From the NCBI GenBank assembly GCA_012514315.1, contig JAAZAN010000006.1:1-64000 (forward strand): a DNA stretch of 64,000 nt. Direction: 5' to 3'. Both the position numbers and the translations under genes were made by a program. Shown here in pieces: positions 25,470-40,564 of the stretch. How positions within the stretch are numbered: the stretch's first letter is position 1; each line of letters begins with the position of its first letter. Source of the stretch: Chloroflexota bacterium. Its GTDB lineage: Bacteria; Chloroflexota; Anaerolineae; B4-G1. The notes below the pieces were generated by a model. That model saw nothing but the letters and a program-made list of their open reading frames with translations, was not told where the DNA came from and searched no databases.

Positions 25470-26282
25470 ATGAACAAGATCGCTGCATTCGAGGCACTGG
25501 CGGAGCGCTTGGTTGAAGGAACGTTCTCACGCTTGTTCGCCAGTCGGCTGCCCCCGCTGGAGGTTGCCGCCCGCATCGCCCGCATAATGGATGACCATCA
25601 GATTGAGGGAACTGACGGCGCCAGCCTGGCGCCGACGCTCTACTGGGTGAGTCTGCATCCGCGGGACTATGATGCTTTGGGAGAGGATAGAGCGGCGATA
25701 TCCGAGGAGATTGCCGGACACGTGCAGTCACTCGCGCGCGCGCGAGGGCTTGTCCTCGTCGCCAGGCCGGTCATCTACTTGCTGCCGGATCCATCGGTCA
25801 ATTTTCGCGAGGCTTCCATCACCGCCCGTCACCTGCACGAGTTCGAACCATTGGAGAGAACGACGGAGATGGGGTCTGCTAAGAGGACAGGAGAGGGTGA
25901 TGAGGCGATTCCTTCTGGCGAGGCGCCGCGAGGTCGTCCATTTCTAATCGTCGATGGCACGCGGCACATCAATCTCGTGCGCCCATTGGTCACTATCGGA
26001 CGTGGTCTGGGCAACACCGTCATTATTGAGGACGCTCGGGTGTCCCGTGAACACGCTCAGCTTCGACTTCGGTTCGGGAGGTACGTGCTCTATGACCTGG
26101 GCAGCTCAGGAGGCACGCTGATCAATGGCTATCCGGTTGAGGAGTGTGTGCTCCACTCAGGCGATGTGATCTCGCTTGCGGGCGTGGAGCTGATCTATGG
26201 TGAAGACCCCCCCACCCCGTTTCCTCTGCCAGGTGCGGAGGATACCCCTCCGCTCCACGGGGACCCTTCGACGACCGAGTAG
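25470..26282 (+). CDS. FhaA-like protein: DUF3662 N-terminal domain plus FHA domain
   Basis: A 270-residue cytosolic protein. Residues 1-125 match the FhaA N-terminal domain (DUF3662) of Actinobacteria: FEALAERLVEGTFSRLF, then PLEVAARIARIMDDHQ and the HPRDYDAL segment. A short acidic linker leads to a C-terminal FHA domain (about 165-255) with the phosphothreonine-binding residues Arg in TIGRGLGN, Ser and His in RVSREHAQL, and GSSGGTLING. FHA domains bind phosphothreonine peptides; in mycobacteria FhaA links Ser/Thr kinases to peptidoglycan synthesis. It is followed after 3 bases by a second FHA gene. Confidence 0.88.
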   Translation: MNKIAAFEALAERLVEGTFSRLFASRLPPLEVAARIARIMDDHQIEGTDGASLAPTLYWVSLHPRDYDALGEDRAAISEEIAGHVQSLARARGLVLVARPVIYLLPDPSVNFREASITARHLHEFEPLERTTEMGSAKRTGEGDEAIPSGEAPRGRPFLIVDGTRHINLVRPLVTIGRGLGNTVIIEDARVSREHAQLRLRFGRYVLYDLGSSGGTLINGYPVEECVLHSGDVISLAGVELIYGEDPPTPFPLPGAEDTPPLHGDPSTTE

Positions 26283-26285
26283 GCC

Positions 26286-26714
26286 ATGGACATTGCGCTT
26301 CTCGCTCTGCGGCTGATTCTGTTGGCCACGCTATACTTGTTTCTGGCAGCCGTCCTCGTGCTGCTTGCGGTGGATTTGGGCCACCGCCGGCGTACCTCGA
26401 CAGGAACGCCGGTTGAGGGGCGTCTGGTCGTCGTCGCCAGTGAGGCCCCCGAGATCGTGGCAGGCGCCATCTTCGGACTGCAGCGGCTGACCTCGATCGG
26501 CCGGTCACCCGACAATGTTGTCGTTGTTCCGGATACCTTTACCTCCAGCCGACATAGCTTGTTGGCCTGGCGTGAGGGTCAATGGTGGTTGGAGGATCAG
26601 GGGAGCCGCAACAACACATTTCTGAATGGACACCCCATCACCGAGCCGACTGTTGTCAGTACCGGCGATCTCATCGGTGTGGGCAAAACGCAATTCAGAT
26701 TGGAGTTGGGATAG
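26286..26714 (+). CDS. FhaB-like membrane-anchored FHA protein
   Basis: A 142-residue protein with one N-terminal membrane helix (about residues 5-29) and a cytosolic FHA domain (about 66-140) containing SIGRSPDNVVVVPD, SSRHSLL, DQGSRNNTFLNG and a final GKTQFRLE strand. The architecture equals that of mycobacterial FhaB/FipA, which recruits phosphorylated partners to the division and elongation machinery. Core phosphothreonine-binding residues (Arg, Ser, His, Asn) are intact. It lies 3 bases after the FhaA-like gene and ends immediately before the SDR gene. No kinase or phosphatase is adjacent. Confidence 0.87.
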   Translation: MDIALLALRLILLATLYLFLAAVLVLLAVDLGHRRRTSTGTPVEGRLVVVASEAPEIVAGAIFGLQRLTSIGRSPDNVVVVPDTFTSSRHSLLAWREGQWWLEDQGSRNNTFLNGHPITEPTVVSTGDLIGVGKTQFRLELG

Positions 26715-29137: not shown

Positions 29138-30010
29138 ATGTCGGACAGTAGCGTTAGAATCGGGGTAATTGGAGGATCGGGTCTCTACGCGATGGAAGGC
29201 CTTCAGGAAGTCGAGGAACATCGCATCCAGACGCCCTTCGGAGATCCATCGGACGACATTGTCGTCGGCGCCCTCGAGGGGGTCAGGGTTGCGTTCCTGG
29301 CGCGGCACGGACGGGGACACCGGATTCTGCCCACTGAAGTGAACTCTCGCGCCAACATCTACGCGCTCAAGACGCTGGGAGTCGAACAGGTGATCTCGGT
29401 GTCGGCGTGTGGTTCACTCCGCGAGCACTTGCACCCGGGGGAGGTCGTTGTTCCAGATCAGCTGTTCGATTTCACCAAGAGGCGCCCCAACACCTTCTTT
29501 GGTGACGGGCTTGTCGCTCACGTGGGTGTCGCGGATCCATTCTGTGCGCGCCTCTCGGCGCTGGTCGTGAGTGCGGTACGCGAAGCAGGCGGCGTCGTGC
29601 ACACGGGCGGGCGATTCATTACGATCGAGGGGCCGCGCTTCTCGACTCGGGGAGAGAGCCACGTGTTTCGCGCCTGGGGCATGGACATCATTGGGATGAC
29701 GACATCGCCCGAGGCGTTCCTCGCTCGTGAGGCGGAGATGTGCTATGCCGTGATGGCTCACGTCACAGACTATGACGTGTGGCATGAGACGGAAGACCCA
29801 GTCAGTGTCGACGCGCTCCTGACCACGCTGGCGAACAACACAGCCGTGGCTCAGGAAGCCTTGCGGCTTCTGGCCAAGATGGGCGCCCAGGCGACCCGCC
29901 ACTGTGAGTGTGGTGCAGCTCTCTCTACAGCGTTGATTACTCAGCGTGATGCGATTCCGAACGCGGTGGTACGAGACCTGGCGCCGATAGTCGGCAAGTA
30001 CCTCACGTAG
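29138..30010 (+). CDS. mtnP: S-methyl-5'-thioadenosine phosphorylase
   Basis: A 290-residue member of the PNP/MTAP family. GVIGGSGLY begins the fold; TPFGDPSDDI, ARHGRGHRILPTEVNSRAN (phosphate site), FITIEGPRFSTRGES and GMTTSPEAFLAREAEMCY place it with MTAP rather than plain purine phosphorylase. It cleaves MTA to adenine and 5-methylthioribose-1-phosphate in methionine salvage. AAGGAGA (29124-29130) sits 7 bases before the ATG. Being 93 bases from the previous gene, it may have its own promoter. A MtaD-type MTA/SAH deaminase is encoded 2.8 kb away on the other strand. Confidence 0.92.
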   Translation: MSDSSVRIGVIGGSGLYAMEGLQEVEEHRIQTPFGDPSDDIVVGALEGVRVAFLARHGRGHRILPTEVNSRANIYALKTLGVEQVISVSACGSLREHLHPGEVVVPDQLFDFTKRRPNTFFGDGLVAHVGVADPFCARLSALVVSAVREAGGVVHTGGRFITIEGPRFSTRGESHVFRAWGMDIIGMTTSPEAFLAREAEMCYAVMAHVTDYDVWHETEDPVSVDALLTTLANNTAVAQEALRLLAKMGAQATRHCECGAALSTALITQRDAIPNAVVRDLAPIVGKYLT

Positions 30011-30038: not shown

Positions 30039-32768
30039 TTGCTACCGCGATCCGATGTAGTGCGACCCAAGAGGCTGCAGGCGTCTATTCGCCGCGTGGC
30101 CGACGCAGACTCCAACCAGCGCGAGAGATTCCTGCTCGGTCTCGTGTTGGCATTCGCGGTCACAGGCGCGCTTCTTCTCCGAGCGTGCGATGCAGCCCCC
30201 ACAATCTGCAATGCGTCCGTCTCTACGACCACAGCGGCGTTGATCGTCCTCCCGCTGACGATTTCGTTTGGCAGCCTGCATCTCGTTCTGTCGAGGCGAC
30301 TGCCTACCAGAGACCCGGTGATTCTGCCGTCGGCAGCTATGCTTACTGCCTTGGGGCTCCTGCTGGTCGCCAGACTCGCACCGAACTTCCTTCTGCGTCA
30401 GGTCGCCTGGGTCGTCATCTGTGCACTCGCACTGGGGTGCGTCTCCCTCATGGGCTCCGACCTGCGTTGGCTTCAGCGATTCCGTTACACCTGGCTACTT
30501 GGTGGCCTGGCGCTACTGGCTGCTACACTGGTGCTGGGTGTGAACCCTTCGGGATATGGGCCAAGACTGTGGCTTGGCCTCGGGACGCACTACTACTTCC
30601 AGCCGTCCGAGCTCCTTAAGCTACTCATGGTCGCGTATGTGGCATCCTACCTAAGCGACAAGCGCGAGCTGGTGGCTCAGCGGACCGAGTCCGGCGCTTC
30701 GAGGCTGGCGGTCCTGACCTACATTGGTCCGCTGGTGACGATGTTCGGCATCGCACTCGTGCTGCTCGCCTGGCAGCAGGATCTTGGCGCTGCGATGCTC
30801 TTCTTCTTCACCTTCCTGAGCATGTTCTACCTTGCGACCGATAGGTTAGGCTATATTGTGGTGGGCCTTGCGCTCTTCATCGCAGCAGGCGTGGCCGGAT
30901 ACTACCTCTCGGATCACGTTGCGTTGAGGGTCGATGCCTGGCTTAACCCGTGGCCTGATGCTGCTGACCGGGCCTACCAGATTGTCCAGTCCCTCCTCGC
31001 ATTCGGCGCCGGTAGGCTTCTCGGAACAGGTCTTGGCATGGGGGTCCCGACGTACATCCCCGCCGTTCACACGGACTTCTCGTTCGCAGCGATCGCGGAG
31101 GAGCTCGGACTTGCGGGGATAGTCGCCGTGATTGCGCTGTTCGGCATTATCACTGCGAGGGGGTTCCGGGCTGCCTCACGAACCCCAAGGCTTTATGAGC
31201 GACTGCTCGTGGCCGGTCTGACCTCCGGGATCGCCATCCAGGCTCTCACGATCATGGCCGGCAACGGCAAACTGGCACCAATAACGGGCGTGACGCTCCC
31301 CTTTGTCTCGTATGGGGGTAGCTCCTTATTGATCACGTCCATAGCGCTTGGCCTCGTGCTGCGCGTTTCCGGTGAACAACGCTCAGTTGGCAGGCCCGAG
31401 CATGTCGCGGCGGGGAGCCTTCCGATTCGCGGTCTGGCGCGCTTCCTGCTGGCCCTGTTCGGTCTGGTTGCCCTGGGGTCTGGCTATTGGGCCTATGTCA
31501 GGTCAGATGCACTGTGGCTCCGCCCGGACAATCCGAGGCGAGTTCTCTCACAGCAACGAGTTGTTCGTGGGGCCATTCTGGGCAGCGATGGGACCGAGCT
31601 GGCTGGGGCCCAGGTGGACACCGATGGCCTGGTGACACGAACCTACCTGGTGCCCGAGGCCGCGCCTGTGGTCGGCTACTACAGCCTGCGATATGGGACC
31701 AGTGGCATCGAGGCCACCTATGACCCTGTTCTGACGGGTACTGAGGATGAATTGGTCCTGCTCAGAGTGTGGCGTGATCTCCGGCGCCTCCCGGTTCGCG
31801 GGCGTGGTGTTCAACTCACGCTGGACCCTGATCTTCAGACCGAGGCTCAACGAGCGTTGCAGGGTAGATCTGGGGCGGCGATTGTGATGGATGCACGGAC
31901 CGGCGCGCTCCTGGCAATGGCATCGAGCCCTACCTTCGATGCTCGGTCCCTCGACGAGAGCTGGGCAGGTCTGGTCGAAGATTCTCAATCGCCTCTGGTG
32001 AACCGGGCGACACAAGGGTTGTATCAGCCGGGCACACTGGTGCAGACATACCTGCTGGCCGAAGCGCTCACCGACGGCTTGGTCACGCTCGAATCGGCAG
32101 TCGCTGGTGCGACAGACCCTCTGTCAATCAACGGGACGTCTGTGAGATGTCTGCAGGTCCCGAGTGAGACCACAGTGGCGGGGGCCTATGCCTCTGGTTG
32201 CCCTGCGTTGGCGGCGGAGCTAGGCACGGAACTGGGCGCAGGCGGCATCCGGCGGGCGCTCGAGCGATGGCATTTGACGAGAGCTCCAGCCGTTGACGGG
32301 CTGCTCACCGACGGGCCAGAGTGGCGGGACGACGAATTCCTAGACAGCCATTCCATCAAGCTCGAGGCAGTCGGTCAGGGTGACCTTACGGTATCGCCAT
32401 TACAGGTCTCGCTCGCCGTTGCTGCGTTGGCCAATGGGGGTGAGATGCCGCAGGTCCATGTCGTCGATCGGGTCGAGGAGTCTCCTGGCATCTGGCGCCG
32501 GCTTGAGCCCAACGTAGCGACCCGGGCGGTTGCATCTCAGGGGTCGACCCGTGAGGTGCTGCAGCTCTGGGAGACGGATGGTTCGCTCATATTTCGGACC
32601 GATGTAGCCATCGCGGGGCATCAACGGATGATGCACACGTGGTTCTCAGGCATCCTGGGTGTCCGCGACGCCCCCCCCCTTGTCTGTGTTGTTCTTCTCG
32701 AACACACGGCTGCGACTCGGGACGCTTACGAGATCGGCCGTCACCTGCTTGGGTTGCTCGCAGACTGA
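30039..32768 (+). CDS. SEDS (FtsW/RodA) protein fused to a degenerate class B PBP domain
   Basis: A 909-residue protein. Residues 30-445 are a SEDS peptidoglycan polymerase: GVNPSGYGPRLWLGL, FQPSELLKL, WQQDLGAAMLF, NPWPDAADRAYQIVQSLLAF with the catalytic-type Asp307, HTDFSFAAIAEELG and PFVSYGGSSL. A further membrane helix (about 466-486) leads to a class B penicillin-binding transpeptidase-like domain (590-909). All three catalytic motifs of that domain are lost: the SxxK position reads TLVQ (Thr666, Gln669), SxN reads GCP (720-722), and KTG is replaced by HQR near 861. So polymerase function looks intact and transpeptidation absent. TTG start with AGGGGA 8 bases upstream. Confidence 0.9.
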   Translation: MLPRSDVVRPKRLQASIRRVADADSNQRERFLLGLVLAFAVTGALLLRACDAAPTICNASVSTTTAALIVLPLTISFGSLHLVLSRRLPTRDPVILPSAAMLTALGLLLVARLAPNFLLRQVAWVVICALALGCVSLMGSDLRWLQRFRYTWLLGGLALLAATLVLGVNPSGYGPRLWLGLGTHYYFQPSELLKLLMVAYVASYLSDKRELVAQRTESGASRLAVLTYIGPLVTMFGIALVLLAWQQDLGAAMLFFFTFLSMFYLATDRLGYIVVGLALFIAAGVAGYYLSDHVALRVDAWLNPWPDAADRAYQIVQSLLAFGAGRLLGTGLGMGVPTYIPAVHTDFSFAAIAEELGLAGIVAVIALFGIITARGFRAASRTPRLYERLLVAGLTSGIAIQALTIMAGNGKLAPITGVTLPFVSYGGSSLLITSIALGLVLRVSGEQRSVGRPEHVAAGSLPIRGLARFLLALFGLVALGSGYWAYVRSDALWLRPDNPRRVLSQQRVVRGAILGSDGTELAGAQVDTDGLVTRTYLVPEAAPVVGYYSLRYGTSGIEATYDPVLTGTEDELVLLRVWRDLRRLPVRGRGVQLTLDPDLQTEAQRALQGRSGAAIVMDARTGALLAMASSPTFDARSLDESWAGLVEDSQSPLVNRATQGLYQPGTLVQTYLLAEALTDGLVTLESAVAGATDPLSINGTSVRCLQVPSETTVAGAYASGCPALAAELGTELGAGGIRRALERWHLTRAPAVDGLLTDGPEWRDDEFLDSHSIKLEAVGQGDLTVSPLQVSLAVAALANGGEMPQVHVVDRVEESPGIWRRLEPNVATRAVASQGSTREVLQLWETDGSLIFRTDVAIAGHQRMMHTWFSGILGVRDAPPLVCVVLLEHTAATRDAYEIGRHLLGLLAD

Positions 32769-32801: not shown

Positions 32802-34823
32802 CTAGCTCTCATTTCGGGAATCCGGCGCTCCCACAACACGGCCCAGAACCAGGTCCGGGTACTCCTCCTTAACCGGCTGCATATGCGTCAACGCAAGCGA
32901 ATGCAGAAGCTCGCCGATGAGTGCTGCCTTGCGCTCCGCGTCCTGGCTGGACCATGTGCGACTCTTGATCTCCAGGAAATGCGTGGACCAGCTCGGCTGG
33001 ATGATCTGGTCAATGTTGAGCGCGAACGCGGTACCCCCAAAACGAATGTGGTACCTGCGCCGCCGCTTCGAGACCTCGACCGTCTGAGCCGGGTCGAAGT
33101 ACTCCTTGTAGAACCTCAGGCTGTGAGTGGCGGGAGCATCGTATCGTGACTGGCTGAGAATGACCAGATTGTCGTACTCGCGTTCCCTGATGGAGCCCGT
33201 AAGAGTCAGCCGATACTCCACGCTCTCGACGTGTTCGCCATCCGACGAGAGAACCTCATCCTCCCGATATCGAATCCGGCTGTGGTCCACATCATCGAGG
33301 ATCAGGTAGGCGTCGTACTGGCGTCTGACGCTGGATCGCACCACCGCCAGTAACCCACTCTCGATCGCATCTTCCACGGAGCTCAGATCGTCCGCGGAGA
33401 GCTGTACCTTGACCTGCACCTCGAAGGCGCGTCCCTGCGAGACATCGCTAAGGGCCAGGAGCTTGCTCAGTATGCTTTCCTCACGCGCCACAATGAATGA
33501 GCTCACCTTGTTGGCAACGCGCTGCGCCTCTCTGCGTGCGTACTCAGTGTCCACAGTCAGTACTTGCCGATCCCGCATGAGCCAGCGACCGTGACACAGA
33601 ACGTGCAGAATATCGGCGCTCTTGGCTCCGTAGACGATCAGCGCATAGATGCTCGACGCAGTGTCATCAAATCGCGGAGTCAGGTGAACTGTATTGAGAT
33701 CAATGACGGCCAGATCGGCTCGCTTTCCGATCTCAATCGAGCCAGTGATCTGATCCAGGCCAAGGGCTCTTGCTCCCATGGTCGTCGCCATCTCAAGTGC
33801 CTGTTGAGCTGAGACCGCGGTTGGATCACCGGTGATGCCCTTAGCGAGCAGCGCGGCCAGCCTCGTCTCTTCAAGTATGTCCAGATCATTGTTGCTTGCA
33901 CTCCCATCGGTTCCAATGCCGACCGGAATGCCGAGTTCGAGCATCCGGGTCACCGGAGCGAATCCGCTGGCAAGCTTGAGATTGCTTGTGGGACTGTGTA
34001 CGACACCCACGTCGTGGTGAAGCAGCGTGTACAACTCACCCTCATCCAGATGGACACAGTGGGCAGCGGTTACGCGCGCTCCAAACAGTCCCTGCTTCTT
34101 CACCCAGGGTACCACAGGCATGCCGTACTCCGCGCGCTGTCTGGCGACTTCCTCGGCCGTCTCCGCTATGTGGATGTGAATGGGGACATCCTCAGCAAGC
34201 GCTAACTGGGCGCAGTCTTGAAGCATCTCGACCGTCGAGGTGTATGCTGCGTGAGGGCCGACCGCAGGGGTGATCAGCTCGTGTCCCTTCCACCGCGTAA
34301 CAAAATCCCTGGTCAGTTCCAGTGCTTGATCGTAACTCCCGGCATCGGGCGTGGCGAACTTCAGTATCGATTGGGCGCAGACCGCCCGCATGCCAGCCTG
34401 GGCCGCCGAATCTGCAACGGTCTCCTCGAAGTAGTACATGTCACCAAAGCAGGTGACCCCGGACTGGATCATCTCAGCACACGCCAGCTGCGTTCCAAGC
34501 CAACAGAAGTCGGGACGCACGAACTCGCGTTCTGCGGGCATCATATACCCAACCAACCAGACATCGAGCCGCAGGTCATTCGCCAGTCCTCGCAGAAGCG
34601 TCATCGGCGCGTGTGTGTGACCGTTGATCAGACCAGGGATCACCGCGCATCCGCTGCAGGTCAACTCCTCAGCGCCCTGGTACTCGCGCACGACCTCCCG
34701 CTCCGGGCCCACCGCGACGATGGAGTTCCCGGAGACAGCTACCGCTCCCGGCGTGTAGACGTTTCCGGCGCCATCCATCGTGACGACTGTGCCGCCCAGC
34801 AGGACGAGATCAGCTTGAGCCAT
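32802..34823 (-). CDS. MTA/SAH deaminase (MtaD-like) fused to a C-terminal CYTH-like domain
   Basis: A 673-residue protein. Residues 1-435 are a cytosine-deaminase-like amidohydrolase of the MtaD/SsnA group: INGHTHAPMTLLRG (metal HxH), HIHIAETAEE, TAAHCVHLDEGE, VHSPTSNLKLASG and GTDGSASNNDLD. MtaD deaminates methylthioadenosine or S-adenosylhomocysteine. Residues about 464-650 resemble a CYTH/triphosphate-tunnel domain: FEVQVKVQL (E-x-Q-x-K in place of ExExK), RIRYRED, VEYRLTLTG, SKRRRRYHIRFGG and THFLEIKSRTW. ATG 34823 is chosen because GGAGGG lies 4 bases upstream, within the promoter-defined transcript. It is convergent with the SEDS gene, 33 bases apart. Confidence 0.85.
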   Translation of the reverse strand: MAQADLVLLGGTVVTMDGAGNVYTPGAVAVSGNSIVAVGPEREVVREYQGAEELTCSGCAVIPGLINGHTHAPMTLLRGLANDLRLDVWLVGYMMPAEREFVRPDFCWLGTQLACAEMIQSGVTCFGDMYYFEETVADSAAQAGMRAVCAQSILKFATPDAGSYDQALELTRDFVTRWKGHELITPAVGPHAAYTSTVEMLQDCAQLALAEDVPIHIHIAETAEEVARQRAEYGMPVVPWVKKQGLFGARVTAAHCVHLDEGELYTLLHHDVGVVHSPTSNLKLASGFAPVTRMLELGIPVGIGTDGSASNNDLDILEETRLAALLAKGITGDPTAVSAQQALEMATTMGARALGLDQITGSIEIGKRADLAVIDLNTVHLTPRFDDTASSIYALIVYGAKSADILHVLCHGRWLMRDRQVLTVDTEYARREAQRVANKVSSFIVAREESILSKLLALSDVSQGRAFEVQVKVQLSADDLSSVEDAIESGLLAVVRSSVRRQYDAYLILDDVDHSRIRYREDEVLSSDGEHVESVEYRLTLTGSIREREYDNLVILSQSRYDAPATHSLRFYKEYFDPAQTVEVSKRRRRYHIRFGGTAFALNIDQIIQPSWSTHFLEIKSRTWSSQDAERKAALIGELLHSLALTHMQPVKEEYPDLVLGRVVGAPDSRNES

Positions 34824-34859
34824 TGGCCCTCCTCGAGTGAATCGTGCGAGTATCGTTGG

Positions 34860-34888
34860 ATTATACGCTCGCCCCTCATATGCGCCAA
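34860..34888 (-). promoter_or_regulatory. promoter for the MtaD-CYTH gene
   Basis: On the minus strand TTGGCG (34888-34883), a 17-base spacer and a perfect TATAAT (34865-34860). The predicted leader is about 30 bases and includes the GGAGGG ribosome-binding site. Confidence 0.72.
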
Positions 34889-34953
34889 ACGGCGAGCGAC
34901 TCCTGCAGAGGCCAACGCAAGCGGCGCCGCCTGAGCGCCTCCTTGGTCCGTGC

Positions 34954-34982
34954 TTGTCCATCAAGCGGTGACGCGGTATCAT
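34954..34982 (+). promoter_or_regulatory. promoter for the MurJ-like gene
   Basis: TTGTCC (34954-34959), a 17-base spacer and TATCAT (34977-34982). The predicted start near 34989 coincides with an in-frame ATG, so either a leaderless product starts there or ATG 35055 is used. Confidence 0.45.
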
Positions 34983-35054
34983 TCGCCTATGCTGGCGGCG
35001 GTCTGTTTCTCTACCGTCTGCGAGCTCCAGCTGGCTGTATTCGATTGGAGGTCC

Positions 35055-36554
35055 ATGCAACGGAGCGACTATCGTGCTACTGCAGTGGTGGCGCTCGGAT
35101 TGGTCATCGCATCTCTGACGGGCTTCGCTCGCCAGGCTGTGTTAGCCTCTAGACTGGGCGTCGGAGCCGCCGCTGACACATTTCTGGTTGCGTACATACT
35201 CCCTGAGTTTGTCAGCGTAGCGCTGCCCATTGTCCTGACGCCGGCCTTCCTCCCGCTGTTTGCTTCGCTGCGGCTGAGGGAGGGGGACACGTCGGCCTGG
35301 CGGCTTGCGTTCCAGATATCCTTGCTCCTCGTAGCTGTCCTTGCCGTCATCACCCTACTTGCCGCGGTAACCACACCTGTCTATCTGCCAATTCTGGCGC
35401 CAGGATTCCGTGATGAACAGGTGAGCCACGCGGTGGCCGTGTCGCGGTTGATGCTGCCAGCCATCGTTCTGATGGGGCTGGTGTCGCTGTTTGGTCCCAT
35501 TCTCCAGGTCTATCGCCGGTTCTGGCGACCCGCATTGGGTACAGGGGCATTCAACGTGGGATTCGCGGCGACCTTGCTGGCGCCCATTGCTCTGCTTCCC
35601 CTACATCTGGCGGCGTGGGGGGTTGTCGTCGGAACCGTGCTGGCCTTGGGGCTTCTGTTACCCCTTGTCTGGCGACACAGGCCGCAAGGGTTTGACTGGA
35701 TCTCAGTCCGGCCAGAGCCTACGGTCCGGGATTTCGCGCGACTCGCTGGGCCGATGCTGATTGGCTACGCGGTCCATCACATCGTGCTTCTGGTGGATCG
35801 CGCGATGGCTACTCAGTTGGGGACAGGCAGCGCCTCGTCGCTCAACTACGCCTATCATATCGCGCTGGCCGTTGGACAGATCAGCGGCCTGGCGGTGTCG
35901 ACAGCCGTATTCCCGCGCGTCAGCGAGCAGTTGGCCGACGATGATGTCATTGCAGCCAGAGGAAGCCTATCCGACGCATTACGCCTTGCATGGGTGATCG
36001 GAGTTCCCGCTGCGTTGTTCTTGATCGTCCTGCGTCAGCCGCTCATCGAACTCTTGCTTGAGCATGGAGCCTTCGGACCATCGGCGACATTGGCTGTTGC
36101 AGGGCCTCTGTTCTGGTACGCATTGGCCGTGCTCTCAGATGCGCTGTGCCAGCCGCTGTGGCGCACGGTGTATGCTGGACGCCTTTCCCACGTCGTGATA
36201 TCGGTGAACCTGATGCAGACAGCTATCCGCATCGCGGCGAGCTTTGTACTCACAGCATCCTTCGGGTATAATGGCCTCGCGATCTCAGCGTTCATTGGGC
36301 TGACGCTGCAGGCCGTGGTGCTCGGCGCCATCGTTCGCAGGCGGATAGGCTCTTTTCTTGGGAGCGCATGGTGGCGGCAGGTCGCACTCTCGAGTCTGGC
36401 GGCGGCCATCGCAGCCATCGCAAGCTACCTCGTTGGGCGACAGGCGATGGCAACACATACCGTTATTCAGATCGGGGCAGGCGGAATCGCCGGGGGGGCG
36501 CTCTATGTTGCGGCCCTCGCTACGTTGACACGATGGGAGAGGAGATTGTCGTAA
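35055..36554 (+). CDS. murJ: MurJ/MviN-type lipid II or polysaccharide flippase
   Basis: A 499-residue MATE-like membrane protein with 14 likely helices. The family signature LTGFARQAVLASRLGVGAAADTFLVAY opens the protein, with PAFLPLFASLR and a later RAMATQLGTGSASSLNYAYHIA. MurJ exports lipid II for peptidoglycan synthesis; paralogues in polysaccharide clusters may flip other lipid-linked glycans, and the company here (ligase-like and GT genes) makes that plausible. The start is uncertain: GGAGGT is only 2 bases before ATG 35055, and ATG 34989 fits a leaderless transcript (adding 22 residues). The stop overlaps the next ATG. Confidence 0.87.
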   Translation: MQRSDYRATAVVALGLVIASLTGFARQAVLASRLGVGAAADTFLVAYILPEFVSVALPIVLTPAFLPLFASLRLREGDTSAWRLAFQISLLLVAVLAVITLLAAVTTPVYLPILAPGFRDEQVSHAVAVSRLMLPAIVLMGLVSLFGPILQVYRRFWRPALGTGAFNVGFAATLLAPIALLPLHLAAWGVVVGTVLALGLLLPLVWRHRPQGFDWISVRPEPTVRDFARLAGPMLIGYAVHHIVLLVDRAMATQLGTGSASSLNYAYHIALAVGQISGLAVSTAVFPRVSEQLADDDVIAARGSLSDALRLAWVIGVPAALFLIVLRQPLIELLLEHGAFGPSATLAVAGPLFWYALAVLSDALCQPLWRTVYAGRLSHVVISVNLMQTAIRIAASFVLTASFGYNGLAISAFIGLTLQAVVLGAIVRRRIGSFLGSAWWRQVALSSLAAAIAAIASYLVGRQAMATHTVIQIGAGGIAGGALYVAALATLTRWERRLS

Positions 36555-38449
36555 TGGATCAACGAGACCGTGGCCTTCCTTCGCGGCAGATCACCATCGC
36601 CATGGGAGCCGGACTCGCGCTGTTTCTAGCGCTAATGCCGTTCCACCTGGTGATCAAACGACTCCTACCCGATCCCGTAGGCACCTACTGGAAGGAAGGC
36701 GTGCTTGGCCTGGTTCTGCTGGGATGGGTAGCACTCTGTGTTGTCAAGCGCCGGCTGACGTTGACAAGAACGACCGTGGACCTGGCCATCGGGGCCTATC
36801 TGGTGCTACTTCTTGCTCATGCCCTGCTGGAGCGCACGGGGTGGACCACGGCGTGGGGACTCTACATCTCCGTGATGTATCTGCCCCTGGCCTGGCTCAT
36901 TCCTGCCGTCCTGGAGGACCGGCCCGTGTGGTTGTCCAGGCTGTTGTGGTTGCTGGTCGGGCTGGGCGCCCTCATCGCATTGGGCGGGATCGCTGAGTTC
37001 ATGCTGAACAGGGCGCTGTGGCCATCCAGCGAAATGGTGGAGCGTCTCGGATCGCCCGACATGTACATCTACGGGACACACGTCCGGCGCGTGTATTTCA
37101 CTTTCGACTCGCCCACTACCTTAGCTAACACACTGGGGCTTCTGTTACCGATCGCGACAGCCCTCGCGATACACCCACTGGACGATGGCCCCGCCAGCGG
37201 CCGAGCGCGCGTGTTCGCCGCCCTATCCGCCGTGCTGATGGCAATGTGCATTGTGCTGACTTTCAGTCGGGGTATATGGGTTGCCACGCTCATCGGCCTG
37301 GCTGCATTCGGTTCGGCCATGGTCTTTCGGTATGGCGACCGCAGGATGCTTTTCGCTGTGGCTGGCGTGCTCGCGATCGCTGGGCTGGTCTGGGGAATCG
37401 CCGCGATTTCCACCAGGAATGCCGAGGTGGCTACAGAAAACCGGATTATCGAGCTATCGAGCGTCGCGTACGCGGACATCGAGGTCGCTGAACGCAACAG
37501 CTTACTCAGTGCGCAACCCAAGGGGGCGGATGCTGAGACTCAGACGTGGACCCTCCAGGACCCTGTGAGCCTGGCCGACGACACGCGCGAGGTGGTGTTC
37601 CTCCATCCTTCGGAGTCCGGCGAAGCAGAGATTGCCTACGAGGTCGAAGTCCCCGAGAGCGGCGCGCTGAAGTACGCGATCGCGATCTCTCCCGAGGTGT
37701 GGGGTACTGAGTACGGCGACGGCGTGGAGTTCCGGATCTACGTGGACGCCGGCGCCCAGGACAGGACCTTGGTCTTCAGTCGATACGTCAACCCCAAGCA
37801 GAATCCAAGTGATCGTCGCTGGCGGAACTACGTTCTCGATCTATCGGACTGGGCAGGCCAGGACGTGGAAGTGCTGCTGGCCACTACCGGAGGACCAGCC
37901 GGAGATTGGGGCTTTGACTGGAGCGGATGGTCCGATCTTCAGGTCGGTGTGGTCGACGCTGAGCTCTTCGAGTCGTCTCAAGGAGGGGGCGCGATTCTTC
38001 GACATACCCAATCCATCCTGAACTGGTCGACGGACGAGACAAATCGCGATCGACTGGCAGCCTGGAGCCAGGGTGTGCGTGCGTGGCTGAATGCACCCAT
38101 CCTCGGTCGTGGGCTGGGGAGCACCGGCGTGGCGGCCCTTAGGACACAACCTCAAACCGCTCTGGTCACCGAGAGCCAGGTGCTTAAGTCGTTGGTTGAG
38201 TTAGGCCTACCGGGACTCGTTGTCTGGGGCTGGCTGTGGTTCGAGATTGCCCGCGTCGGAATGAGGGCTCTGTCGCGCACGCAAGGCGCCGCCCAGAGGA
38301 CATTGATTCTCGGGGTTCTGACCAGCCTGTTGATCGTGTTTATCGAAGGTTGGGTGTACCAGAATCTTGAGGTGAAGCAGGTAAACGCCTTCTTCTGGGT
38401 CCTGGTGGGCGTAGCTGCTCATCTGGCTCGCACTGTCAATGAGCAGTAG
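36554..38449 (+). CDS. O-antigen-ligase-like (Wzy_C) protein with inserted beta domain
   Basis: A 631-residue membrane protein. About ten helices precede and two follow a long extracytoplasmic loop. The Wzy_C part is recognisable by LTFSRGIWVATLIGLAAFG, WSQGVRAWLNAPILGRGLG near 496 and ESQVLKSLVELGLPGLVVWG. Between them, residues about 300-475 form an extra predicted beta-sandwich (WTLQDPVSLADDTREVVFLH, DGVEFRIYVDAG, WRNYVLDLSDWAGQDVEVLL, DWGFDWSGWSDLQV) that looks like a carbohydrate-binding module. Proteins of this family polymerise or ligate lipid-linked glycans outside the membrane. ATG 36554 overlaps the MurJ stop (TAATG). Confidence 0.8.
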   Translation: MDQRDRGLPSRQITIAMGAGLALFLALMPFHLVIKRLLPDPVGTYWKEGVLGLVLLGWVALCVVKRRLTLTRTTVDLAIGAYLVLLLAHALLERTGWTTAWGLYISVMYLPLAWLIPAVLEDRPVWLSRLLWLLVGLGALIALGGIAEFMLNRALWPSSEMVERLGSPDMYIYGTHVRRVYFTFDSPTTLANTLGLLLPIATALAIHPLDDGPASGRARVFAALSAVLMAMCIVLTFSRGIWVATLIGLAAFGSAMVFRYGDRRMLFAVAGVLAIAGLVWGIAAISTRNAEVATENRIIELSSVAYADIEVAERNSLLSAQPKGADAETQTWTLQDPVSLADDTREVVFLHPSESGEAEIAYEVEVPESGALKYAIAISPEVWGTEYGDGVEFRIYVDAGAQDRTLVFSRYVNPKQNPSDRRWRNYVLDLSDWAGQDVEVLLATTGGPAGDWGFDWSGWSDLQVGVVDAELFESSQGGGAILRHTQSILNWSTDETNRDRLAAWSQGVRAWLNAPILGRGLGSTGVAALRTQPQTALVTESQVLKSLVELGLPGLVVWGWLWFEIARVGMRALSRTQGAAQRTLILGVLTSLLIVFIEGWVYQNLEVKQVNAFFWVLVGVAAHLARTVNEQ

Positions 38450-39452
38450 GCCAACGATCTCAGCGATCATTGTCAACTGGAATCACGGAGCGTACCTTGA
38501 GAGTTGTCTCGAGGCGCTGTGCGCTCAGCAAGGCCCGGACCTGGAAGTGGTTGTGGTTGACAACGCGTCCACAGACGGGTCTGTCCAGAAGCTATCCCGC
38601 CACGCCTCACGGGCGCGGCTGCTTCGGATGTCAGAGAATGTCGGCTTCTCGCGGGCATTCAACTCGGGCGTCAAGGCTGCCGGTGGGCAGTACATGCTCT
38701 CGCTGAATCCGGATGTGTTTGTCCGTCCCGGCTTTCTGTCCGCACTCGTTGACGCTATGGAGGCAGATCCGCGTATTGGTTCGGCGGCCCCCAAGCTGTT
38801 GCGCGCCGATGATCCAGCGGTGCTAGACTCAACCGGCCTCTTCGTCGATCGTCGTCGCCGGACATATGACCGTGGTCAGGGCCAGATGGACGCAGGCCAG
38901 TACGATCGAATGGTTGAGGTGTTCGGCGCGTGCGGAGCAGCCGCTATCTATCGCCGGACTATGCTCGACGATGTGGCGATCGATGGGCAATTCCTCGACG
39001 AGAGGTTCTTCGCATACTATGAGGATGCGGACCTTGCCTGGCGGGCGGGGCTGCGGGGATGGCGTTGTGTGTTTGTTCCAACGGCGGTATGCGAGCACGT
39101 CCGTGGATGGGGAGACACGCTCCGCAAGCGGGGGCATGCGCGTAAGGCGGGCAGCGGCCCACGCCTGGCGCTCCGCAATCGGTATCTGATGACAATCCGG
39201 AACGACACGCTGGGTCACTTCCTCTTGGACCTGCCCTGGATAGTCACTGCCGAGATTCCAAGGCTTGCCTACGCGGCGATGGCTCGCCCGCTGACTCTGA
39301 TGGGACTGCTGGACCTGATCGCAGCGGCGCCAGATGCTGTCCGGAAGCGTCAGTACATTCGAGCCAGCGCGACCGTGGATGACGGTGCTCTGCGCCATTG
39401 GTTCGTTGAGCGTGCTGCGACCGCTGCGCAGTCGGGGGGGGCAGCGTGCTGA
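38439..39452 (+). CDS. GT2-family glycosyltransferase, rhamnosyltransferase-like
   Basis: A 337-residue GT-A enzyme. It contains AIIVNWNHGAYLESCLEAL, VVVVDNASTDGS (nucleotide binding), SLNPDVFV at the metal-binding DxD-like site, and DERFFAYYEDADLAWRAGLRGW with the catalytic-base region. This order is typical of WbbL-like rhamnosyltransferases that act on lipid-linked acceptors; the sugar is not determined. It overlaps the ligase-like gene by 11 bases and the next GT4 gene by 7, so all three are co-translated. Confidence 0.85.
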   Translation: MSSRPTISAIIVNWNHGAYLESCLEALCAQQGPDLEVVVVDNASTDGSVQKLSRHASRARLLRMSENVGFSRAFNSGVKAAGGQYMLSLNPDVFVRPGFLSALVDAMEADPRIGSAAPKLLRADDPAVLDSTGLFVDRRRRTYDRGQGQMDAGQYDRMVEVFGACGAAAIYRRTMLDDVAIDGQFLDERFFAYYEDADLAWRAGLRGWRCVFVPTAVCEHVRGWGDTLRKRGHARKAGSGPRLALRNRYLMTIRNDTLGHFLLDLPWIVTAEIPRLAYAAMARPLTLMGLLDLIAAAPDAVRKRQYIRASATVDDGALRHWFVERAATAAQSGGAAC

Positions 39453-40564
39453 GAGTCCTCTTACTCTACTATGAGCCGGCTCCTGCCGGTCAGACGACAC
39501 ACGTGGTATCGCTCGCCCGAGGGTTAGTGCAGCTGGGGCACCACGTGGCGGTGGTTCTTCCTCAGGAGCTGCGGGGCAGCGCCACTGCACTGCAGGGTTC
39601 AGGAGTGGTCGTCATTCCAGTCCGTATGACCAAGATCCTCTGGCCAGCCGCATCGATCCGGGACGTAGTCCGGTTGATTCGGACTGGGCGCTTCGACCTG
39701 GTGCACATCCACAGCCAGGAGGCTGGGCTCCTGGGCCGTTGTGTGGCGTCTGCGATCGGTGCGCGCCCCATTGTGTACACACCGCAAGTCATCGAGATTC
39801 GTCGCACAGCTTGGCAACCCGTTTACGCCAGACTGGAATGGCTGCTCAGCTTGGTGACCGACCGGATCATCGCGGTCAATGACGGTGACCGGAGACGTAT
39901 GGAGGGCTGGCGCATCCCCAGCCACAAGATTGTTACGATTCCCAACGGGGTACCCATCGACTGTCAACCGGACGTATCACTTGCGGAGAGTATGCGGGCA
40001 TCTCTAGGTATCAGGCGCGACCAGGCGCTTGTGATGCAGGTAGGCCGACTGAGCCCTCAGAAGGACCCGCTCGCGTTTGTTGAAGGCGCGCGGCGCGTAG
40101 TCGCGAGTCGCCCGGGCGTACACTTCGCTCTGGTGGGAGAAGGACCACTTCACGGCGCGGTTGTGTCTCGCATCCGTGAACTGGGCCTGACGGGTCAGGT
40201 CCACTTGATGGGCTGGCAGGACTCAGCCCGTGACCTGATGGTAGGAGCTCAGGTGGTGACATTGACCTCCCGCTGGGAGGGTACTCCGTACGCTCTGTTG
40301 GAGGCAATGGCGCGGAGTCGGACGGTCGTCGCCACCGCCGTCAACGGATGCCGTGAAGTCGTCGAAGACGGTCAGAACGGATTCCTGGTCGCTGCGGGCG
40401 ATCCCGATGCCTGGGCCGACCGGGTAGTCTGGCTTCTCGATCACCCAGACAGTGCCGCCGAGATGGGTAGGACGGGCCGGCGAATCGTCGAGGCCCGCTA
40501 TTCGGTGGATCGCATGGTGCACCGGACGCTCGATCTCTACCAGCGCGTACTCAATGGCTTATGA
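39446..40564 (+). CDS. GT4-family glycosyltransferase
   Basis: A 372-residue GT-B enzyme. The N-terminus RVLLLYYEPAPAGQTTHVV leads the acceptor domain. The donor domain shows VMQVGRLSPQKDPLAFVEGA (Arg and Lys for the diphosphate) and a TSRWEGTPYALLEAMARSR motif containing the EX7E pattern. Specificity is unknown. GTG 39446 overlaps the GT2 gene. Its stop codon overlaps by 6 bases the stop of the convergent radical SAM gene, leaving no room for a terminator. Confidence 0.86.
   Translation: MLRVLLLYYEPAPAGQTTHVVSLARGLVQLGHHVAVVLPQELRGSATALQGSGVVVIPVRMTKILWPAASIRDVVRLIRTGRFDLVHIHSQEAGLLGRCVASAIGARPIVYTPQVIEIRRTAWQPVYARLEWLLSLVTDRIIAVNDGDRRRMEGWRIPSHKIVTIPNGVPIDCQPDVSLAESMRASLGIRRDQALVMQVGRLSPQKDPLAFVEGARRVVASRPGVHFALVGEGPLHGAVVSRIRELGLTGQVHLMGWQDSARDLMVGAQVVTLTSRWEGTPYALLEAMARSRTVVATAVNGCREVVEDGQNGFLVAAGDPDAWADRVVWLLDHPDSAAEMGRTGRRIVEARYSVDRMVHRTLDLYQRVLNGL

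Follow-up and report, generated by a model that had tools for sequence, protein, structure and literature searches.

A SEDS polymerase fused to a class B PBP without catalytic motifs at the FHA locus of Anaerolineae

The window, a 64,000-nucleotide stretch of a Chloroflexota genome (class Anaerolineae), carries at 30039..32768 on the plus strand a gene whose product joins a SEDS polymerase to a catalytically dead class B PBP (bPBP) of the PbpA type. The frame starts with TTG, has no internal stops, and encodes 909 amino acids (925 codons are open); since most homologues align only from residue ~20-30, the real start may lie 3' of the TTG at 30039. To briefly describe the domains, all on the same strand, the first half of the chain is by both fold and sequence a SEDS (FtsW/RodA/SpoVE) protein (residues 116-448, 30384..31382; PF01098 FTSW_RODA_SPOVE, E 7.9e-71), with SEDS chains as its best sequence matches in the PDB. 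A transmembrane linker helix (residues 463-487, 31425..31499; from model helix H463-487 and the alignment) joins it to the second half and occupies the place of the bPBP N-terminal transmembrane helix. There follow the pedestal, or PbpA dimerisation domain (residues 498-592, 31530..31814; PF21922, PBP_dimer_2, at 510-581, E 5e-13, and the rate analysis below), and a pseudo-transpeptidase domain (residues 593-909, 31815..32765; PF00905, Transpeptidase, at 612-848, E 3.5e-19, and a PDB fold match to Mycobacterium tuberculosis PBPA). By Pfam, model, and fold search, the bPBP half thus has its membrane anchor, its pedestal, and its transpeptidase fold. The single open frame and the Pfam domains bear out the earlier note on this DNA, which had read the 909 residues as one SEDS-transpeptidase chain.

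The genes upstream, also on the plus strand, are conserved members of the locus: an FhaA-like protein with FhaA_N and FHA domains (25470..26282), an FhaB-like FHA protein (26286..26714), and an MTAP-like nucleoside phosphorylase (PNP_UDP_1; 29138..30010), the conserved upstream neighbor of the SEDS gene. The order common across the class is RtcB-archease, then FhaA-FhaB-(SDR)-MTAP-SEDS-PbpA. FhaA-FhaB-SEDS-PbpA is also found in Actinomycetota, where it is flanked by PknB, and the bPBP half has what marks the PbpA of an FHA locus, namely a PF21922 domain, a SEDS neighbor, and an FhaA/FhaB locus. Tree position and gene order support orthology between the fusion and the RodA-PbpA pair of the actinobacterial FHA locus, and M. 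tuberculosis PBPA (PDB 3un7/3lo7) has a like domain order and PF21922 pedestal. The fusion departs from the actinobacterial pair in several respects: the two proteins form one chain, none of the three catalytic motifs survives, an additional gene, MTAP, has been inserted, and PknB was not found at the locus. Downstream, 32802-35060 on the minus strand is a 752-amino-acid frame with an amidohydrolase domain to about residue 493, followed by some 250 residues to which Pfam assigns nothing. At 34950-40564 on the plus strand stand in a row genes for a flippase of the MurJ type, a Wzy_C protein resembling O-antigen ligases, and a pair of predicted glycosyltransferases; the MurJ frame (34950-36554) overlaps the next one (36368-38449), as listed.

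Class B PBPs are recognized by SxxK, SxN, and KTG, none of which the fusion has. In an alignment with active homologues, the SxxK position reads TLVQ (T666 to Q669; 32034..32045), SxN reads GCP (G720 to P722; 32196..32204), and KTG reads RTD (R853 to D855; 32595..32603), all on the plus strand. The motifs are gone in all close homologues as well, most close relatives of the fusion having HLG at the KTG position. Motif positions were assigned by this alignment, in which ~67 active homologues from Clostridia, Actinomycetota, Thermomicrobia, Dehalococcoidia, and some Anaerolineae served as internal controls. SxxK, SxN, and KTG are all intact in these, and the method therefore detects the motifs where they are present. 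Could the motifs have shifted, as the earlier note allowed? Aligned with the active controls, the fusion's transpeptidase domain has no SxxK, SxN, or KTG elsewhere, and TLVQ and GCP stand as that note had read them. KTG, which it had called absent, is indeed lost, but by replacement with RTD, in a strand that is kept in the model (E850-859), and not by deletion. Because the nucleophilic serine and the lysine are missing, penicillin binding and transpeptidation by this domain are predicted to be absent.

The AlphaFold2 model of the fusion (31 rows; mean pLDDT, 89.4; pTM, 0.81) keeps the transpeptidase fold, including the former KTG strand, with pLDDT >90 across most of the domain. Foldseek against the PDB ranks the PBPs of Atopobium and Eggerthella (Coriobacteriia) and M. 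tuberculosis PBPA at the top, with TM scores of ~0.8 by target length. A pair of cysteines, Cys704 and Cys721 (32148..32201, plus strand), includes the x of the lost SxN (Cys721). Of the dead homologues, 73 have both, which is nearly every one without a gap there, versus 30 of 67 active ones. Few columns are newly conserved in the dead homologues: Arg566, Cys704, Pro724, and Leu783, in the numbering of the window's protein.

What of the SEDS half? Asp307 (30957..30959, plus strand) falls at the ECL4 residue proposed as the catalytic Asp of SEDS proteins (FtsW D297/RodA D262), and the other SEDS signature motifs, QPSE, HTDF, and GGSS, are retained. FtsW D297 has been discussed in the literature, with residues critical for FtsW activation located at the interface of ECL4 and the FtsI pedestal (PMC8765783). 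The earlier note had pointed to a catalytic-type Asp307; the residue is there, but it is weaker evidence of catalysis than was stated, because the column varies in the family, intact PbpA partners included. Where the partner is dead, 64 of 84 homologues have D or E in this column; where it is intact, 14 of 20 do. An acid occurs somewhere in the loop in 81/84 and 19/20, respectively. Asp307 would thus neither prove nor exclude polymerase activity, which the lack of strict conservation at the proposed catalytic column leaves short of guaranteed. The proposal that the SEDS half is also dead is unsupported, as the partners of intact PbpAs vary alike at this column. The genome's own RodA (G000:C95:6404-7534), whose PBP2 partner is intact, is not strictly Asp at the ECL4 column either (NPSGNPD), and the same is true of some FtsW proteins of the order.

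Among 60 related genomes searched, the fusion was found in three families of the order, at 42-56% identity. Counting the window's own, 30 fusions were examined (29 from the order plus L038 from another family of the class), and the triad is lost and the junction the same in 30/30, although the L026 sequence ends before KTG. Among the named relatives from another genome collection are MAGs of Thermoflexus sp. (L145) and of a member of the Thermoflexales (L134), which makes the source of the window a Thermoflexales-like Chloroflexota. The search for homologous fusions that the earlier note had proposed thus returned 29, likewise without the motifs, and for this reason the fusion and the motif loss are not an assembly error. 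A frameshift or mis-assembly at the junction, about which that note had been wary, is ruled out by the same recurrence. Across the class, a PF21922 profile search of 298 genomes gave a match in 166, and the transpeptidase domain was read in 59; this sampling may have let more diverged PbpA homologues escape. Fused or separate, 52 of these 59 further SEDS-linked PbpA homologues are dead, 6 are intact, and 1 is ambiguous. The intact ones (L072, L077, L078, L087, L092, and L118) are separate proteins with SxxK, SxN, and KTG, and outgroup PbpA homologues retain the motifs too. Dead PbpA homologues also exist as separate proteins adjoining their SEDS gene.

The ambiguous case, L111 (G053:C189), is a separate PbpA frame of 380 amino acids from the same class, with KTGTAQ intact. 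A low-complexity GELEEIGELRELEG-like stretch replaces its SxxK-to-SxN segment, and its sister L072 is intact. A repeat insertion, a fault of assembly, or a recent loss may explain the stretch.

Which came first, the loss or the fusion? In a careful maximum-likelihood tree built on the SEDS domain, the columns of which do not depend on the PBP motifs, every dead-partner row falls in one clade (support, 98/92), and the intact Anaerolineae, Thermomicrobia, and Dehalococcoidia branch outside it. The state changes on this tree, 1 for active/dead versus 9 for fused/separate, indicate that the catalytic centre was lost once, in an ancestor of most Anaerolineae, and that repeated fusions came later. 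Fusion as the cause of motif loss is ruled out, given the dead separate forms, the loss on one branch, and the nine fusion changes. The phenomenon is thus older and wider than the earlier note claimed.

The dead domain has not been left to drift. For close pairs, dN/dS is ~0.13-0.29 in the pseudo-PBP and 0.05-0.22 in the SEDS domain, low values that place both under purifying selection. The distribution of constraint has nevertheless changed. In active homologues, the transpeptidase domain evolves more slowly than the pedestal (rate ratio, 0.76 [0.67-0.91]), whereas in dead homologues it evolves faster (1.44 [1.34-1.56]); the latter figure may be too high if the degenerate domain is misaligned, a bias that a core-column version was meant to limit. 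The slower and faster rates were seen with pairs matched by SEDS distance, the ratios come from disjoint pairs with columns set on an active reference, and the pedestal/SEDS rate is not raised in dead homologues. Relative to active homologues, constraint has gone from the transpeptidase domain and been retained on the pedestal, the pattern one would predict if the pedestal, which contacts SEDS, remains important and catalysis is no longer needed.

The cell has other candidates for cross-linking its wall. In its genome, FtsI shares a dcw cluster with FtsW, and PBP2 goes together with RodA and MreC; FtsI and PBP2 both retain their motifs, which answers the earlier note's question of whether a separate active class B PBP is present. 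Class A PBPs and seven YkuD (L,D-transpeptidase) homologues are encoded as well. Transpeptidase-family proteins occur in 48/48 genomes of the order, where 24 of the 29 class B PBP loci fetched match the strict pattern PGSxxK-SLN-K[TS]G. In most of these genomes the fusion comes as a third SEDS gene.

Work on known systems provides a frame for these observations. bPBPs are described as selective allosteric activators of their SEDS partners (PMC12713402), RodA being activated by the conformation of PBP2 (PMC6207328, PMC10257715) and stimulated by its transmembrane helix (PMC10449877). The E. coli pairs RodA-PBP2 and FtsW-FtsI likewise combine a SEDS polymerase with a pedestal-bearing, allosterically activating class B PBP (PMC6207328, PMC10257715), but as two chains with an active transpeptidase; the genome of the fusion has such pairs in addition. 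Catalysis can be removed from a bPBP without removing its usefulness: in Bacillus subtilis the catalysis of PBP2b is dispensable while the presence of the protein is not, and catalytically dead SpoVD of Clostridioides difficile supports asymmetric division, though only with SpoVE present (PMC12713402). Those engineered dead forms still serve their SEDS partners, as is proposed here, but they are laboratory mutants, whereas here the loss arose in nature and has become fixed throughout a large clade. Pseudo-PBP partners of SEDS proteins appear only as laboratory mutants in the literature searched, which covered few subscription journals and contained no description of a natural, conserved dead bPBP in this role; PMC8406291 makes no mention of Chloroflexi, "fusion," or "fused."

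A dead partner is unexpected, because in E. coli the coupling of polymerisation to cross-linking is thought to prevent the formation of toxic uncrosslinked glycan (PMC6207328). Why, then, keep one? Our preferred reading, to which we give a probability of about two in three, is that the fusion is a third SEDS-bPBP synthase of the cell whose PBP half survives as an allosteric activator or scaffold. The PbpA half lost SxxK, SxN, and KTG a single time and has persisted since then in pseudo-transpeptidase form. The transmembrane helix and pedestal of this half would dock on the SEDS domain and allosterically activate, position, and stabilise glycan polymerisation, the SEDS half polymerising lipid II. 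The intact FtsI and PBP2 and the class A PBPs would do the cross-linking, perhaps together with the L,D-transpeptidase homologues. The PbpA gene was later fused to its SEDS gene on several occasions, presumably because an obligate subunit without catalysis of its own benefits from a fixed stoichiometry. The evidence suggests that the lasting role of the dead partner is to switch on and hold the polymerase, not to cross-link the wall. The earlier note had likewise proposed an activator or scaffold with cross-linking done elsewhere, and this part fits the intact PBPs and YkuD homologues of the genome, the single loss, the purifying selection, and the constraint on the pedestal. Its emphasis on permanent covalent attachment fares less well: the fusion is real, but dead separate PbpAs exist and the loss predates the fusions, so attachment would be secondary to the loss of catalysis.

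Other explanations deserve a hearing. The kept fold, with its high pLDDT over most of the domain, the purifying selection, and the cysteine pair retained beside the former active site would suit a pseudo-transpeptidase that has become a binding domain for peptidoglycan, stem peptides, or a regulator such as an active PBP, targeting the polymerase to sites cross-linked by another enzyme. That the transpeptidase/pedestal rate is about twice that of active homologues, with few newly conserved columns, makes this rather unlikely, and it is in any case compatible with the activator/scaffold reading. Somewhat more doubtful is a scheme in which the SEDS half makes uncrosslinked strands or another lipid-linked polysaccharide and a useless transpeptidase has decayed to a structural cap. 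It would account for a triad lost although the SEDS half is strongly conserved, for the variable Asp column, and for the flippase, ligase-like, and glycosyltransferase genes within 8 kb downstream. Those genes, however, lie beyond an opposite-strand gene and are not among the relatives' neighbors (most flanks searched were short); QPSE, HTDF, and GGSS are kept; and the Asp varies also where PbpA is intact. An artefact of sequencing or assembly, or a decaying pseudogene, might be feared of a fragmented MAG (354 contigs, 6.7% contamination), but junction and losses recur in independent assemblies and dN/dS is well below 1, leaving almost nothing to recommend it. On sequence evidence the fusion, the loss with its single origin, and its conservation are secure, as are the action of purifying selection and the existence of other transpeptidases.

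How a class B PBP divides its work between activating and cross-linking has so far been probed with laboratory point mutants. Here is a natural experiment across a large clade, in which catalysis was lost once, the partner was kept and repeatedly fused, and constraint moved to the pedestal. On balance, we lean slightly toward the broader view that this is a class-wide SEDS synthase with a dedicated pseudo-enzyme as its bPBP, which without a transpeptidase of its own makes glycan strands either uncrosslinked or cross-linked only by other enzymes, so that the activating and catalytic roles of a bPBP would be naturally separated. For biochemistry and structural work, the fusion also provides a SEDS protein and its presumed activator as one chain, which penicillin should not acylate, and the synthase is predicted to be insensitive to beta-lactams at its own PBP.

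Natural SEDS-PBP fusions as such have been described (PMC10449877). Those of Coriobacteriia and Dehalococcoidia are likewise one chain, SEDS and then class B PBP, but in the ones examined (L147, L150, L155, L174, and others) SxxK, SxN, and KTG are intact, unlike here. L147, L150, and L155 come from Dehalococcoidia and Chloroflexi MAGs, and further fusions with intact motifs are L167, L174, L177, L185, L197, and L202. The L147 record bears the title Dehalococcoides mccartyi; because that group is generally described as having no peptidoglycan, this MAG may be misnamed.
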